Shown here piece by piece: positions 32,579-58,591 of a stretch of DNA of 64,000 nucleotides (positions are counted from its first letter, which is position 1; each line of letters starts with the position of its first letter). Location of the stretch: contig JAIQEU010000008.1 of the NCBI GenBank assembly GCA_020073665.1, positions 131,748 to 195,747 on the forward strand, read 5' to 3'. The stretch comes from Terriglobia bacterium. GTDB lineage: Bacteria > Acidobacteriota > Terriglobia > Terriglobales > Acidobacteriaceae. The notes beneath the pieces are model-generated. The model made no database searches. It worked only from the letters and a program-made list of their open reading frames with translations, and was not told the DNA's origin. Made by a program: the position numbers and the translations under genes.

Positions 32579-32707
32579 TAAGGGGCTCTCGGTAATTCTG
32601 CATTGTATGACTTTTTGGGGAAGAAGCGGGGAGCTTTTGGCTTCCAGCTTTCAGCCCGGCCCGCTGTGCTACACTACTGGTTTCATTCAGGACATTCGAT
32701 CCGCACC

Positions 32708-32986
32708 ATGCTGCTTTCCAAAGAATATGTGGGCTACCTGGCCCGCGAAGTCACCAAGAAACTGATCGCCGGGGAATTCATCGAGACCAAGGAACCCGCC
32801 AAGGTCACGGAGAAGGTCCACGCGGCCATGCTGGAAGAGATGTCGCTCGAGGACCGCATCCACGACGAGGTTCGCGTCATCCTGGAGGCTTACTCCGAAG
32901 AAATGCGCCAGAGCGGCGCCAACTACCAGGAGATGTTCCGCAAGGTCAAGAGCGAACTGGTGCGCAAATATAAGGCGGTGCTGTGA
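32708..32986 (+). CDS. DUF507 family protein, first of a tandem pair
   Basis: The product has 92 residues and is all helical: MLLSKEYVGYLAREVTKKLIAGEFIETKEPAKVTEKVHAAMLEEMSLEDRIHDEVRVILEAYSEEMRQSGANYQEMFRKVKSELVRKYKAVL-type DUF507 pattern. The function of DUF507 is not established. ATG 32708 is chosen because the family begins with M-x-L-S; the open frame upstream is not conserved. The second family member starts inside its stop codon, so the two are translationally coupled and may form a heterodimer. Confidence 0.85.
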   Translation: MLLSKEYVGYLAREVTKKLIAGEFIETKEPAKVTEKVHAAMLEEMSLEDRIHDEVRVILEAYSEEMRQSGANYQEMFRKVKSELVRKYKAVL

Positions 32987-33258
32987 GAGTCAGCCGCGAC
33001 AAAGTGAACAAAGTGGCGCACGTGATCAGCGACGCGCTGGCCGAAATGGACGAAGTGGATTTCGTAGAAGACCGCAATACCATCCGCCTGGAAGCTCGAA
33101 AGATTCTCGAAGACCTGCTCAATCAGGAAGAGAAAATCGACCTGGCCGCCCGCGCCAAGATCGAGAACCAGAAGCGCACCATCCTGGAAGGCAGCCAGGA
33201 GTGGGACATCTTGTATCGGAAATATTACAACGAAGAAGTGAAAAAACTGGGGATGTAG
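32983..33258 (+). CDS. DUF507 family protein, second of a tandem pair
   Basis: The product has 91 residues and is all helical (SRDKVNKVAHVISDALAEMDEVDFVEDRNTIRLEARKILEDLLNQEEKIDLAARAKI). It uses GTG as start codon within GTGA, overlapping the stop of the first DUF507 gene by four bases. It is a paralogue of that protein but diverged, with a distinctive SQEWDILYRKYYNEEVKKL C-terminus. Tandem pairs with this overlap suggest obligate partnership. Its 3' end overlaps the antisense 3' end of the four-helix-bundle gene. Confidence 0.85.
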   Translation: MRVSRDKVNKVAHVISDALAEMDEVDFVEDRNTIRLEARKILEDLLNQEEKIDLAARAKIENQKRTILEGSQEWDILYRKYYNEEVKKLGM

Positions 33259-33631
33259 TACCGAGTACCCAGTACCGAGTACCGAGCAAAACCTTATCGG
33301 GCTTGCGCCAGTGACTCTTACCAATCAGTGAGTTCGTGAGACCACTGAGAGTGCGACTGAGTTCGTCGATCTGTTTCAGGAAGATTTCAATCTGCTCGTC
33401 GGCAGCATATTTTTGCCTTTGCGCGATCAGAAGCTGGGTTTCAAGTTCGGCGAGTGAACCGCGCGCGTGGCGCAGGAAATGCAGAAATTCCCCATTGTTG
33501 AAATGAGCTTGCCCTTCCGCAATATTGCTCGGGATTGATACTGCTGCGCGCCTGATCTGGTCAGTAAGGCTGTAAACCTCCCGCTTGGGAAAGTTGTCGG
33601 TAGCCTCGTATATTCCAGCCACCAAGTCCAT
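33119..33631 (-). CDS. Four-helix-bundle protein (23S rRNA intervening-sequence-protein type), damaged ends
   Basis: The product has 170 residues as read. Residues 1-105 are the four-helix-bundle/IVP family: LTDQIRRAAVSIPSNIAEGQAHFNNGEFLHFLRHARGSLAELETQLLIAQRQK. In-frame codons upstream (FKELIAWQKA) match the usual N-terminus but have no start codon before a stop at 33680, so the natural start is lost or noncanonical. The C-terminal 50 residues (GTRYWVLGTTSPVF...) come from the STEY-type repeat and then run antisense into the DUF507 gene. Members occur inside 23S rRNA genes or as orphan proteins; function is unclear. It may be decaying. Confidence 0.6.
   Translation of the reverse strand: MDLVAGIYEATDNFPKREVYSLTDQIRRAAVSIPSNIAEGQAHFNNGEFLHFLRHARGSLAELETQLLIAQRQKYAADEQIEIFLKQIDELSRTLSGLTNSLIGKSHWRKPDKVLLGTRYWVLGTTSPVFSLLRCNISDTRCPTPGCLPGWCASGSRSWRGRPGRFSLPD
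33257..33287. repeat. GTACCGA repeat cluster 1
   Basis: AGTACCGAGTACCCAGTACCGAGTACCGAG-type tandem heptamers begin at the stop of the second DUF507 gene. They also encode the GTRYWVLGT segment of the antisense four-helix-bundle reading frame. Confidence 0.7.
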
Positions 33632-33679
33632 CGCCTTCTGCCAAGCGATCAGTTCCTTAAATAGTGTCCGGCCATTTCG

Positions 33680-35188
33680 CTATCGCTCGGTACTTGGCAC
33701 CGGCAACTCGGTACTGGTTTTCTCTCGGTACTCGGTACTAGGTACTCGGTACTTCTTCTCTTTCATGGCAAGCAATTTCTGGTGCATCGTCACGGCGGCC
33801 TTGCGGGCGGCGGCCACTGCGGTCACCACCAGGTCCGCGCCGCGGACGTTGTCACCAGCAGCGTAAAGATCCTCGCGTGACGTGACTCCGGTCTCCTCGG
33901 TCTCGACGATGACTGAGCCCCACTTGGTGGTCTTCAGATTGGGGGTGGTTTCGGGGATATCGGTCTCCGGACTGTACCCAATCGCCAGCGCTACGGTGTC
34001 GCAGTCGATGATGAAGTTCGAGCCTTCAATGGGAACCGGCGAGCGGCGACCCTTGGCGTCGGGGGCACCCAGCCTCATGCGAATGCATTCGGCAGCCTTC
34101 ACATTCCCTTGTTCGTCGCCGATGAACTTCACCGGCGCGGTCAGCCACTCGAATTGCACGCCCTCTTCCACTGCATTGATGCGCTCCTCGTAACGACCGG
34201 GCATCTCGACTTCGCTGCGGCGGTAAACGCAATACACCTTGGCGTCGGGATTCAACCGGCGGGCGGTGCGCACACAATCCATGGCCGTGTCCCCGCCTCC
34301 GATCACAATCGTGACTCCGGTGTGGTGGGGCTTGGGATCAGGCAAATTGCGCCAGACCTCGGGCAGCAACTCAGGTTCCAGGTTGCCGCGCACCAGGTAC
34401 TCGGTCGCCTGGTAGACATTCTTCAGCGTGTCCTCTCCGGGGACCTTCATCTCCCCGCCCTTGATCGCGCCATAGCCCAGGAAAACCAGGTCGATTCCCT
34501 GCTTGAAAAAATCTTCGACCGGATTCTCCTTGCCCACGCGGTAATTGCACACGAACCGGACGCCCATTTCTTCCAGGTAGTGGATCTTGGAAAACACGAT
34601 GTCCTTATTCAGTTTGAAGCCGGGAATGCCGTAGAGCAGCAGACCTCCGGGATACGGCCACATGTCGTACACCACCACTTCGTGGCCGCGTACCGCAAGT
34701 TCTTCGGCTACTGCCAGTCCGGCGGGGCCAGCGCCCACCACGGCCGCTTTCATCCCGGTGGGAGCGGCTTTCTCCCGCAAGGGATAGCCATAGTTCTTGC
34801 GTACGTAGTCCACCACGAAGGCTTCCAGCTTGCCAATACAGACTGCAGGATTGCGGGGAACGACCACGCAGGAACCCTCGCACTGCTTTTCCTGAGGGCA
34901 GATGCGACCGCAGACGTCGGGGAAATTTGAGGTCTCCATGAACTTGAGGGCGGCGCCGACGAAGTCGCCCTGGCCGAGCAGGAATAGGGCAGCGGGAATG
35001 TCGTTGTGCAGGGGGCAGCCCTTGCTGCACGGGGCGTGGTCGCAGTACAGGCAGCGTTGGGCCTGCTCGATCGCCATTTCCGGCGTGTAGGCCTGCGACA
35101 CCTCGTTGAAGTTATGGACGCGTTCCTGTGGATCCTGCTTGGGCGGCTTCACCGCCTCAATTTTGAAGCGCTGACGACGGTTGATCAT
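33680..35188 (-). CDS. GltD-like NAD(P)-dependent glutamate synthase small subunit
   Basis: The product has 502 residues. An N-terminal Fe-S region (CLYCDHAPCSKGCP near residues 45-58; CGRICPQEKQCEGSC near 90-104) is followed by an FAD-binding GAGPAGLAVAEELAVRGHEV site near 150, the GIPGFKLNKDIV loop, an NADPH-binding GGGDTAMDCVRTARR segment near 290 and a C-terminal DLYAAGDNVRGADLVVTAVAAAR motif. GltD passes electrons from NADPH to GltB; homologues also pair with other oxidoreductases. No gltB is in the window, so the partner is unknown. GGAGGGGC precedes ATG 35188. The last about 25 residues (YRVPSTEYREKTSTELPVPSTER) are encoded by GTACCGA-type repeats. Confidence 0.85.
   Translation of the reverse strand: MINRRQRFKIEAVKPPKQDPQERVHNFNEVSQAYTPEMAIEQAQRCLYCDHAPCSKGCPLHNDIPAALFLLGQGDFVGAALKFMETSNFPDVCGRICPQEKQCEGSCVVVPRNPAVCIGKLEAFVVDYVRKNYGYPLREKAAPTGMKAAVVGAGPAGLAVAEELAVRGHEVVVYDMWPYPGGLLLYGIPGFKLNKDIVFSKIHYLEEMGVRFVCNYRVGKENPVEDFFKQGIDLVFLGYGAIKGGEMKVPGEDTLKNVYQATEYLVRGNLEPELLPEVWRNLPDPKPHHTGVTIVIGGGDTAMDCVRTARRLNPDAKVYCVYRRSEVEMPGRYEERINAVEEGVQFEWLTAPVKFIGDEQGNVKAAECIRMRLGAPDAKGRRSPVPIEGSNFIIDCDTVALAIGYSPETDIPETTPNLKTTKWGSVIVETEETGVTSREDLYAAGDNVRGADLVVTAVAAARKAAVTMHQKLLAMKEKKYRVPSTEYREKTSTELPVPSTER
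33683..33752. repeat. GTACCGA repeat cluster 2, forming the gltD 3' end
   Basis: CTCGGTACT-type units recur at least five times with spacers (GGCACCGGCAACTCGGTACT, CTCGGTACTCGGTACTAGG). The cluster is translated as repeated V-P-S-T-E in the gltD frame and ends exactly at its stop codon. Confidence 0.75.
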
Positions 35189-35386
35189 CTCGCGCCCCTC
35201 CTTCAGACTTGGCCGGTGCTGGCAAGGACCCAAGGCAGGCAACTCACCCTGGTTCCACCCTGTACCAAGATGCCTTGGGCTTGGCACGTCTGGCTGTGTC
35301 TTAGATCACAAGCGCTGGTGACTTGTGCACCCGGGCTGGGATAATGGCCTCAGGCTCTGGGCTTTAGGACTTTCGGCGAGGACTGG

Positions 35387-36478
35387 TTGGCGCAGATCAG
35401 CCAAATCACGGCGTTGGTAAAGGCGGCGGCCCGGGAAGCCGGGTTCGAACTGGCCGGCATCGCCCCGGTCCGCGACTTTCCGGAACTCGGCCACTTCCCG
35501 GACTGGATCGCTTCCGGCCATGCCGGCGACATGAAGTACATGGAGGCGCGCGACCAGAACGGCAGTCTGAAGCGTGCTTCGCTCAAGGCTGCGGTCCCCT
35601 GGGCACGCAGCGTGATAGTTTGCGCCATCAACTACAACACCGATCAGGCGTACTCGACCACGTTCCACGATCCGGACCGGGGATGGATTTCCCGTTACGC
35701 CTGGAGTCGCGAAGACTACCACGAAGCGGTGCTGCGGCGGCTGCGCATGGTCGAGGGCCGCATGCGGAAGGGGGCGAGTACCGAGTACCGAGCATCGAGT
35801 ACCGAGCAAGAGATTCAAACCCGCTGCTACGTCGATACCGGCCCACTCGTGGAGCGCGTCTATGCCAAGTACGCGGGCGTAGGCTGGATCGGGAAGAATA
35901 CCTGCATCCTGAACCAGCAGCAGGGCTCGTGGCTCTTTCTCGGAGTAATTCTGAGCTCGCTCGAACTGGAAGCTGATGTCCCGGCTCCGGACCGCTGCGG
36001 CAGTTGCACGCGCTGCATTGACGCCTGCCCCACCGACGCCTTGATTGCGCCTTACCAGCTCGACTCCAGAAAGTGCATTTCCTATCTCACCATCGAGAAA
36101 CGGGGCACCATTCCTGAGCAATTGCGCGAGGGCATGGGGCGGCACCTGTTCGGCTGCGACATCTGCCAGGACGTGTGCCCGTGGAACCGTAAGGCTCCCG
36201 CCACCTCGGCGCCGGAATTTCAGCCGCGCGAAGGATTGGTCAATCCTGCCCTGGATTGGCTGGCGGAGATGACCGCGGACGAGTTCCGCGAGAGGTTTCG
36301 CGGATCGCCGCTGCGGCGGGCCAAGCGCAGCGGCTTGCGGCGGAATGCCGTGACCGCCATGGGCAACAGCGGGAACCGCGATTTCCTGCCCTTGCTGGAG
36401 AAATTGGCTGCGGACGACGATCCGCTGGTCGCGGAGAGCGCGCGATGGGCGGAGAAGAAGCTGCGGACCGAGTCGTAG
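35387..36478 (+). CDS. queG: Epoxyqueuosine reductase
   Basis: The product has 363 residues. The N-terminal domain (ISQITALVKAAAREAGFELAGIAPVRDF ... GDMKYMEAR) and central IGKNTCILNQQQGSWLFLGVIL are typical of QueG. The two [4Fe-4S] motifs CGSCTRCIDACPTDAL and CDICQDVCPWNR follow, and a HEAT-like C-terminus completes the protein. QueG reduces epoxyqueuosine to queuosine in tRNA using cobalamin. The likely start is TTG 35387, with GAGGA just upstream; no better ATG exists before the conserved region. Residues about 129-142 (ASTEYRASSTEQE) come from a GTACCGA-type repeat inserted in frame in a linker before the conserved RCYVDTGPL motif. Confidence 0.92.
   Translation: MAQISQITALVKAAAREAGFELAGIAPVRDFPELGHFPDWIASGHAGDMKYMEARDQNGSLKRASLKAAVPWARSVIVCAINYNTDQAYSTTFHDPDRGWISRYAWSREDYHEAVLRRLRMVEGRMRKGASTEYRASSTEQEIQTRCYVDTGPLVERVYAKYAGVGWIGKNTCILNQQQGSWLFLGVILSSLELEADVPAPDRCGSCTRCIDACPTDALIAPYQLDSRKCISYLTIEKRGTIPEQLREGMGRHLFGCDICQDVCPWNRKAPATSAPEFQPREGLVNPALDWLAEMTADEFRERFRGSPLRRAKRSGLRRNAVTAMGNSGNRDFLPLLEKLAADDDPLVAESARWAEKKLRTES
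35775..35811. repeat. GTACCGA repeat cluster 3, in frame inside queG
   Basis: GAGTACCGAGTACCGAGC followed by ATCGAGTACCGAGC is inserted in the queG coding sequence without breaking the frame. It is the same unit as at 33257 and 33683. Confidence 0.8.
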
Positions 36479-57727: not shown

Positions 57728-57773
57728 CAGTAGTCCGTGGCCAGTTGTCAGTTGCCAGAGGAACCGGCATTCG

Positions 57774-58518: not shown

Positions 58519-58591
58519 CCACAGAGACAGAGAGGCACAGAGAAAACCAGAATTTGTTCCCAAATTCCTCTCTGTCTCTGTGACTCTGTGG
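58519..58591. repeat. CACAGAG inverted repeat between yggS and yggU
   Basis: CCACAGAGACAGAGAGGCACAGAG is answered by CTCTCTGTCTCTGTGACTCTGTGG about 25 bases later. The inverted repeat starts one base after the yggS stop and ends 11 bases before the yggU start. Confidence 0.75.

Follow-up and report, generated by a model that had tools for sequence, protein, structure and literature searches.

A stretch of 64,000 nucleotides from a Terriglobia bacterium (GenBank assembly GCA_020073665.1, contig JAIQEU010000008.1, positions 131,748 to 195,747; hereafter "the window", meaning the whole stretch that was analysed) raises the question of why one seven-letter unit, AGTACCN, stands in tandem at three separate places in and around protein-coding genes. 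A preliminary description had held that the repeat entered three coding sequences, namely gltD, queG and the gene of a four-helix-bundle protein, where it would be tolerated because it stays open in coding use. We propose another answer: the arrays are probably parts of a small insertion element, in which a ring formed by the four-helix-bundle protein (family PF05635) would read the heptamers and allow their spread in trans.

Three period-7 arrays were located in the window with Tandem Repeats Finder (TRF) at 33257-33286 (+), 33724-33753 (-) and 35775-35806 (+), and a 17-mer search allowing up to two mismatches returned nine sites, every one inside these arrays; they are thus where they had been described, and far beyond chance (mean of 0.01 per shuffle, n = 100). 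The exact sequence GAGTACCGAGTACCGAG occurs once (35776), the remaining sites being one or two bases off, often at the seventh position, and the whole genome holds 127 sites for AGTACCNAGTACCNAG with up to one mismatch, while the reversed control has none. Between the first two arrays, which are mutually inverted, lies a minus-strand frame with a match to PF05635 over the full profile length (E 5e-38), TIGR02436 also scoring above its cut-off. This open frame runs from 33679 down to 33122 and, on the strand opposite to DUF507, reads through the array at 33257-33287, which overlaps the DUF507 stop; the earlier wording that the array replaces the C-terminus of the four-helix-bundle gene was loose, as the profile is matched end to end before the array begins. 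On the gltD side, 4.3 units make up a core of 30 bp (91% matches), from which degenerate spaced units extend to about 33683. Besides gltD and DUF507, three open reading frames (ORFs) of at least 80 aa overlap 33257-33753; of these, the PF05635 frame alone matches a Pfam family, those at 33585-33866 (+) and 32923-33324 (-) having none. A Pfam and profile search of the ORFs of the element found no recombinase or transposase domain; it encodes no recognised enzyme. In an RNA fold of 33250-33760 (z = -6.35) the arms are predicted to form a stem of about 30 bp that closes the element. A gene-less version between nuoD and nuoE of the related genome G003 also folds (z = -7.09), and the solo array in queG has no notable predicted fold (z = 1.80).

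As the preliminary description had suspected, the unit is of foreign origin in both gltD and queG. It makes up the C-terminal tail of gltD (YRVPSTEYREKTSTELPVPSTER, followed by the stop codon), and the three closest orthologues end approximately 18-21 residues earlier (in ...MRETRVTA, ...MRARKQVRST and ...MLARRTA). In queG it forms the in-frame stretch ASTEYRASSTEQ, at a position where the relatives compared have other residues and other lengths, the linker being variable. Neither among the gltD nor among the queG relatives were the same residues found without the nucleotide repeat. In genome G004, the source of one of the three gltD orthologues, a gene-less inverted pair of the related unit AGTACT stands directly after gltD, its first unit overlapping the last codons.

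In the own genome (G000) five PF05635 genes were found, and each lies between inverted heptamer arrays as judged by eye, with an arm unit of its own (GTCGTCN, AGTACCN, AGCAACT, AGCTCTT and AATTTGT). Because PF05635 genes lie between such inverted arrays, the repeats of the window are better understood as the ends of an element than as one-by-one entries into genes: of the three coding sequences said to have been entered, the gltD tail and the queG stretch stand, while a single element has two of the three arrays as its inverted ends, which the preliminary description had not noticed. A strict test, for which both arms had to be periodic and reverse-complementary, was applied to four sets. They were the own genome with 29 further loci fetched from relatives (44 of 61 genomes have PF05635); other species, with one genome per species (best 80 of 582 confirmed loci); 57 PF05635 loci on contigs that are viral by IMG/VR classification only; and nine records read for arms (H1-H8, H24) out of 28 plasmid records with PF05635. 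A locus was left out if either of its flanks measured under 150 bp (1/80 in the other-species and 1/57 in the viral set), and all statistics given here ignore phylogeny. The test was passed by 23/34 loci of the own genome and relatives (4/5 in the own genome, the arms of L005 being clear by eye only), 44/79 of other species, 30/56 on viral contigs and 9/9 on plasmids; counts and p values of the last two sets overstate independence, because near-duplicate contigs are included (L269-L271 with L305; L207/L208; L210/L211). Control flanks passed at 0/30 queG and 2/30 nuoE loci; six of the latter adjoin a real PF05635 element, and the two passes are one of those six (L320) and a GC-rich period-6 stretch (L341).

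Among the best 80 of 582 loci from other species, those passing include Planctomycetes, Clostridia, Gammaproteobacteria, Ignavibacteria, Desulfobia, Elusimicrobia, Gemmatimonadetes, Chloroflexi and a Falkowbacterium. In the same set, period 7 with a score of at least 11 was seen in 40/79 left and 46/80 right flanks, versus 8/150 distant flanks (600-900 bp), the next commonest period being 8 (6 and 3 flanks) and others rare. One query of the INPHARED phages gave no PF05635 match. Elements with period-8 or period-9 arms were also seen (L062, L063, L242, L226, L236, L237), and orthologous nuoD-nuoE sites include both period 7 (L007) and period 8 (L242). Arrays of more than 10 units stand beside the PF05635 genes of L058, L132 and L054, those at L058 pointing in the same direction and not inverted.

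The geometry of the arms is regular. Where both could be called, they are reverse-complementary at 101/112 loci and match in direct orientation at 11/112, compared with 467 reverse-complementary pairs out of 3764 when left and right arms were mismatched across different loci. Read inward, the unit has more G than C in 86 of the 101 loci, and arm length is 4.x units in 106/202 arms (median 4.4). At one orthologous locus both arms have changed together (AGCTCTT in G000, L006; CGCTCTC in G025, L222), which implies that something keeps the two arms matched.

Presence and absence at orthologous sites were found for other elements of this kind and not for the copy in the window, at whose own site no empty counterpart was seen, the neighbours of the relatives differing beyond gltD. 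The nuoD-nuoE junctions of 30 relatives were classed by eye, long gaps being viewed at their ends only: six hold PF05635 sequence with arms (G000, G004, G005, G007, G011, G014; the domains of G007 and G014 are partial), four gene-less paired arms (G003, G010, G021, G037), two remnants (G018, G046), and eight other sequence, none of it with a PF05635 match in the search of the relatives; ten are tight or array-free, with gaps of 0-85 bp. The gene-less pairs differ in unit (ATTTGTG, an 8-mer, an AGGTACC-like unit and AGTGGCT), suggesting independent arrivals at one junction. Genome G015, whose nuoD-nuoE junction is empty, has to judge by coordinates a PF05635 gene beyond nuoE (G015:C8:15574-16410), so that the nuo operon may have been targeted more than once.

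Filled and empty junctions were also found among cyanobacteria, and on plasmids the flanks are more alike. Calothrix NIES-22 has the four-helix-bundle gene between an integrase and the next gene, where Tolypothrix 7601, Aulosira and N. carneum (90-91% identical) have a 3-bp gap; at the nrdB-nrdA junction the gene is present in N. edaphicum and absent from Calothrix NIES-4105 (85% identical flanks), and in a secretion operon it is present in Calothrix 7716 and absent from two NIES-4105 plasmids (89-90%). A PF05635 gene stands between cas6 and cas4 in Pseudanabaena galeata, and ABRG5-3 is without one. The same junction is occupied in Anabaena 90 and lacks the gene in Dolichospermum UHCC 0315A, the aligned parts being 99% identical; this comparison documents an absence and not a clean pre-insertion site, because other sequence fills the Dolichospermum junction (245 bp). 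In these pairs the insertions sit between genes, seemingly replacing a few bases. The four-helix-bundle genes among the strain-unique genes of an Arthrospira, mentioned in the available text of one report (PMC8700078), fit such presence/absence variation.

Outside the elements, arrays are dispersed through the genome. In 800 kb of the own genome, a score of 13 or more is reached by 22 period-7 arrays, compared with 0 in one second-order Markov simulation; a lower threshold gives 32 arrays, of which 16 match a unit found in one of the five PF05635 elements. Four units were counted in 61 genomes, and spread in trans was assessed in the 30 with a fetched PF05635 locus (mostly the best-scoring one per genome; 3 or 4 positives per unit), the arms themselves being subtracted. 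Array counts were higher where the PF05635 arms match the unit, with an area under the curve (AUC) of 0.94 for AGTACC (p = 0.0038), 0.86 for AGTTTC (p = 0.0076), 0.75 for AGTTCT (p = 0.048) and 1.00 for AGTGGC (p = 0.0002). The proteins and their units also vary together: PF05635 identity correlates with unit similarity across phyla (r = 0.156, p = 0.007; r = 0.149, p = 0.014 with unit GC removed), and within the acidobacterial (r = 0.37) and viral (r = 0.50) sets (p = 0.001 each). At G000:C6:3004-3065 (L343), two adjacent arrays of different units lie inside a gene predicted to span 3.4 kb, and AGTACC arrays come after them.

The distribution of the arrays bears on the idea that the repeat persists because it is open in coding use. 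By a simple codon-usage gene model, 18 of the 32 arrays are intergenic and four straddle a gene end, although 84% of the 800 kb is coding. The count of coding versus intergenic positions does place ten arrays within genes; it contradicts tolerance in coding use as the explanation. Nor do stop-free phases explain the repeat, since they follow from arithmetic (7 mod 3 = 1), by which the three frames of one strand read a single cyclic heptapeptide; variants such as TAGTACC hold a stop, and other elements use TAG-containing units (e.g., TAGTGGC in L041). The features of the window are collected in Table 1. The unit of its GTCGTC pair also flanks a PF05635 gene on another contig (L003). Elsewhere in the window, inverted 8-mer arrays at 58520-58590 (CACAGAGA / CTCTGTGA) apparently represent a further hairpin family with period 8, a period-7 stretch at 57728-57758 (CAGTAGTCCGTGGCCAGTTGTCAGTTGCCAG) is possibly a degenerate solo array, and the DUF507 family match (32603-33258) is divided between the overlapping frames 32603-32986 and 32983-33258.

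Table 1. Elements, arrays and associated genes in the window (positions are those of the window)
Feature	Position	Strand	Remark
Whole element	33257..33753		about 500 bp, between DUF507 and gltD
Left arm, about 4.3 AGTACCN heptamers	33257..33287	+	first unit overlaps DUF507 stop codon (TAG/TACC)
Four-helix-bundle domain, PF05635 23S_rRNA_IVP / TIGR02436	33320..33658	-	
Right arm, reverse complement of left; 30-bp core and degenerate spaced units	33683..33753	-	core 33724-33753
gltD-like glutamate synthase small subunit	33680..35188	-	last ~23 codons from right arm
Solo AGTACCN array	35775..35811	+	in frame, variable linker of queG (35387-36478)
Gene-less inverted pair, GTCGTC heptamer family, short loop	27039..27100		

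In the explanation that we favour, the autonomous form would consist of a single PF05635 gene flanked on each side by an array of about four to five heptamers, the two arrays being inverted relative to each other. The heptamer varies between elements and is alike in both arms of one; gene-less inverted hairpins and solo arrays would be the non-autonomous forms. Insertion would take place mostly at gene-gene boundaries, often abutting stop or start codons. A ring of five PF05635 subunits would read the unit along single-stranded RNA or DNA, approximately one heptamer per subunit, and this reading would keep the arms alike and let arrays that share the unit spread in trans, with cutting and joining presumably carried out by a host or other enzyme. 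The solved relatives 2GSC and 2RLD have five chains each in the PDB, and the title of the reference entry for Xcc0516 speaks of "five four-helix bundles". Arms of four to five units beside a ring of five subunits suggest one unit per subunit, in the manner of the triplets read by the trp RNA-binding attenuation protein (TRAP), and this step is the weakest part of the proposal.

Several observations weigh against this explanation. No movement has been observed and no cut-and-join chemistry found, the binding of each PF05635 protein to its own unit is a prediction from sequence, and at the filled and empty pairs no target-site duplication is obvious by eye. The gene in the window has no in-frame ATG, GTG or TTG upstream of its conserved first helix: the gltD TAG shares the PF05635 frame, none of these codons lies between it and that helix, and the first one (33631) falls inside the helix. 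For this reason the copy may be decayed, or it may be translated via another route. The strict test failed at 11/34, 35/79 and 26/56 loci in the first three sets, some of which have arms visible by eye (e.g., L005, L128), and both archaeal loci fetched fail it (L149, and L182 with a left flank of only 81 bp). Several elements occupy orthologous loci in different genera, which makes many copies old. The link between arms and dispersed arrays has exceptions in both directions. Genomes without matching fetched arms nonetheless hold AGTACC (32 matches in G003, 54 in G006), AGTTCT (57 in G006, 33 in G029) and AGTTTC (71 in G018, whose arms are CGTTTC, 58 in G029, 41 in G025 and 27 in G001), and others have matching arms with few arrays (one AGTTTC match for L252 in G028; beyond the arms, 0 AGTTCT in G001 and 2 in G004). 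These exceptions could reflect gene loss after spread, genes that were not fetched, or a helper common to several units. The weak correlation between protein and unit across phyla could likewise result from common descent and not from binding.

Among the alternatives, hairpins and elements alike could be moved in trans by an unrelated transposase resembling those of IS200/IS605 or RAYT, with the four-helix-bundle gene as cargo or accessory. Inverted single-strand hairpins do resemble the substrates of such enzymes, the element of the window has no recombinase domain of its own that could be found, and a TnpB gene lies near both Trichormus plasmid copies. Yet the arms have a period and not a sequence in common, and units differ between elements of one genome, so that a single sequence-specific transposase is hard to reconcile with them; moreover, the unit tracks the PF05635 protein and, with exceptions, the genome of that protein. 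We consider this alternative unlikely.

Slightly less likely still, in our judgement, is that the arms are immobile operon punctuation, that is, hairpins for termination, processing or stability by which the enclosed gene and the neighbouring mRNAs would be protected or regulated. It would suit the many elements between co-directional genes in operon-like order, the strong predicted folds (z of -6.35 and -7.09) and the persistence of some elements at orthologous loci; it sits badly with presence and absence at junctions where the aligned parts of the flanks share 85-99% identity and with solo arrays inside genes, and a hairpin needs no 7-base period.

A retroelement related to diversity-generating retroelements (DGRs), in which the four-helix-bundle protein would serve as an Avd beside a reverse transcriptase that prints heptamers, appears very improbable. 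PF05635 resembles Avd (bAvd and DivGenRetAVD match below their cut-offs), a homology that has been discussed (PMC10053308), and tandem short units recall templated addition. RVT_1 is present in 19/61 genomes, among them the array-rich G003, G006, G021, G028 and G029, but it was not found in the own genome or in the array-rich G001, G010, G018, G023 and G025, and these six array-rich genomes without detectable RVT_1 argue against an obligatory Avd-type reverse transcriptase. Polymerase slippage giving ordinary simple-sequence repeats, for which variable array lengths and a few very long arrays (L058, L132) might be cited, is almost certainly not a sufficient cause and was rejected, given the inverted pairing of matched units around one gene family, their polarity, their dispersal to unrelated sites and the period-7 excess (22 versus 0 in the one 800-kb simulation); it probably adjusts array copy number.

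PF05635 proteins are widespread, and we know of no established function for them. If our explanation is right, a single system joins these proteins with heptamer repeats, and the sequence bound by each protein can be predicted from the arms of its gene; the element may also explain scattered seven-letter repeats that have so far gone without explanation. It would further account for PF05635 genes inside operons, including those of CRISPR-Cas (cas6|cas4 in Anabaena 90 and Pseudanabaena galeata), where such a gene could pass for a Cas-associated one in neighbourhood surveys. PF05635 genes between cas6 and cas4 were seen in type I-D CRISPR operons of two distant cyanobacteria (L214, L402). In the open-licence literature we found no paper linking PF05635 elements with heptamer repeats.

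Comparison with known systems helps to place the element. TRAP is a ring that binds regularly spaced triplets on single-stranded RNA, and its fold is unrelated to PF05635; its likeness to the PF05635 ring is one of analogy, heptamer binding being hypothetical here. Of the marks of DNA transposons and miniature inverted-repeat transposable elements (MITEs), presence and absence at orthologous sites is seen for other elements of this kind, and the Pfam search found no transposase or recombinase encoded inside the element of the window. With DGRs it has in common a four-helix-bundle protein related to Avd, and it differs from them in that no reverse transcriptase was found in the element, nor RVT_1 in G000. 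In REPIN/RAYT systems inverted short hairpins spread non-autonomously beside helper genes; here, by contrast, the candidate helper would be a four-helix bundle in which no catalytic domain is known, and heptamers in tandem take the place of the tagged palindrome.

Heptanucleotide repeats of prokaryotes (STRR, TAACTGA, GGGAATC) have been described separately in several phyla. TAACTGA occurs in Beggiatoaceae, Cyanobacteria and Bacteroidetes with its origin unexplained, horizontal transmission having been suggested "but no mechanism is evident" in the available text of that report (PMC4679880); that of another (PMC4692102) mentions GGGAATC of Xanthomonas and GGGGA(C/T)T of Nostoc, and cites heptanucleotides from Calothrix PCC 7601. 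The published arrays are, in these portions, of unexplained origin, short and mostly intergenic, with some inverted pairs, and in Xanthomonas most often have four units. The tandem 7-mer arrays of the own genome are likewise short and mostly intergenic (18/32, with four at gene ends). The available text of both reports lacks the words "four helix", and that of PMC4679880 lacks "S23". Among the fetched loci, 20-kb pieces excepted, the only published unit that forms a PF05635 arm is GTGATTA (cited for H. pylori; L157); GGGGA(C/T)T was found nowhere, and the TAACTGA dimers of L273 and L277 and GGGAATC in L164 lie outside arms.

The closest likeness is to the intervening sequences (IVSs) of 23S rRNA. 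That of Coxiella burnetii is, in the available text of its description, a 428-nt element with one S23 gene and a 28-bp terminal inverted-repeat stem, which RNase III cuts in vitro and which has been termed selfish, its origin being unclear (PMC4990558). Like such IVSs, the element of the window has a PF05635/S23 gene and terminal inverted repeats with a closing stem, here a predicted one. The IVSs lie in a helix of 23S rRNA, whereas this element stands between the protein genes DUF507 and gltD, and its arms are tandem heptamer arrays whose gene-less and solo forms are scattered genome-wide. To judge from its sequence, it would be a transposase-less mobile element related to the 23S rRNA IVSs, whose movement we infer. 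A broader proposal can be put forward only tentatively and seems to us somewhat doubtful: that these elements form a separate class of enzyme-less prokaryotic mobile element, in which a pentamer would read its own heptamer, one unit per subunit along a single strand, and its arrays would enter gene boundaries and spread there in trans, with the rRNA IVSs and the cyanobacterial, Xanthomonas and Beggiatoaceae heptamers as special cases of the class or its debris.

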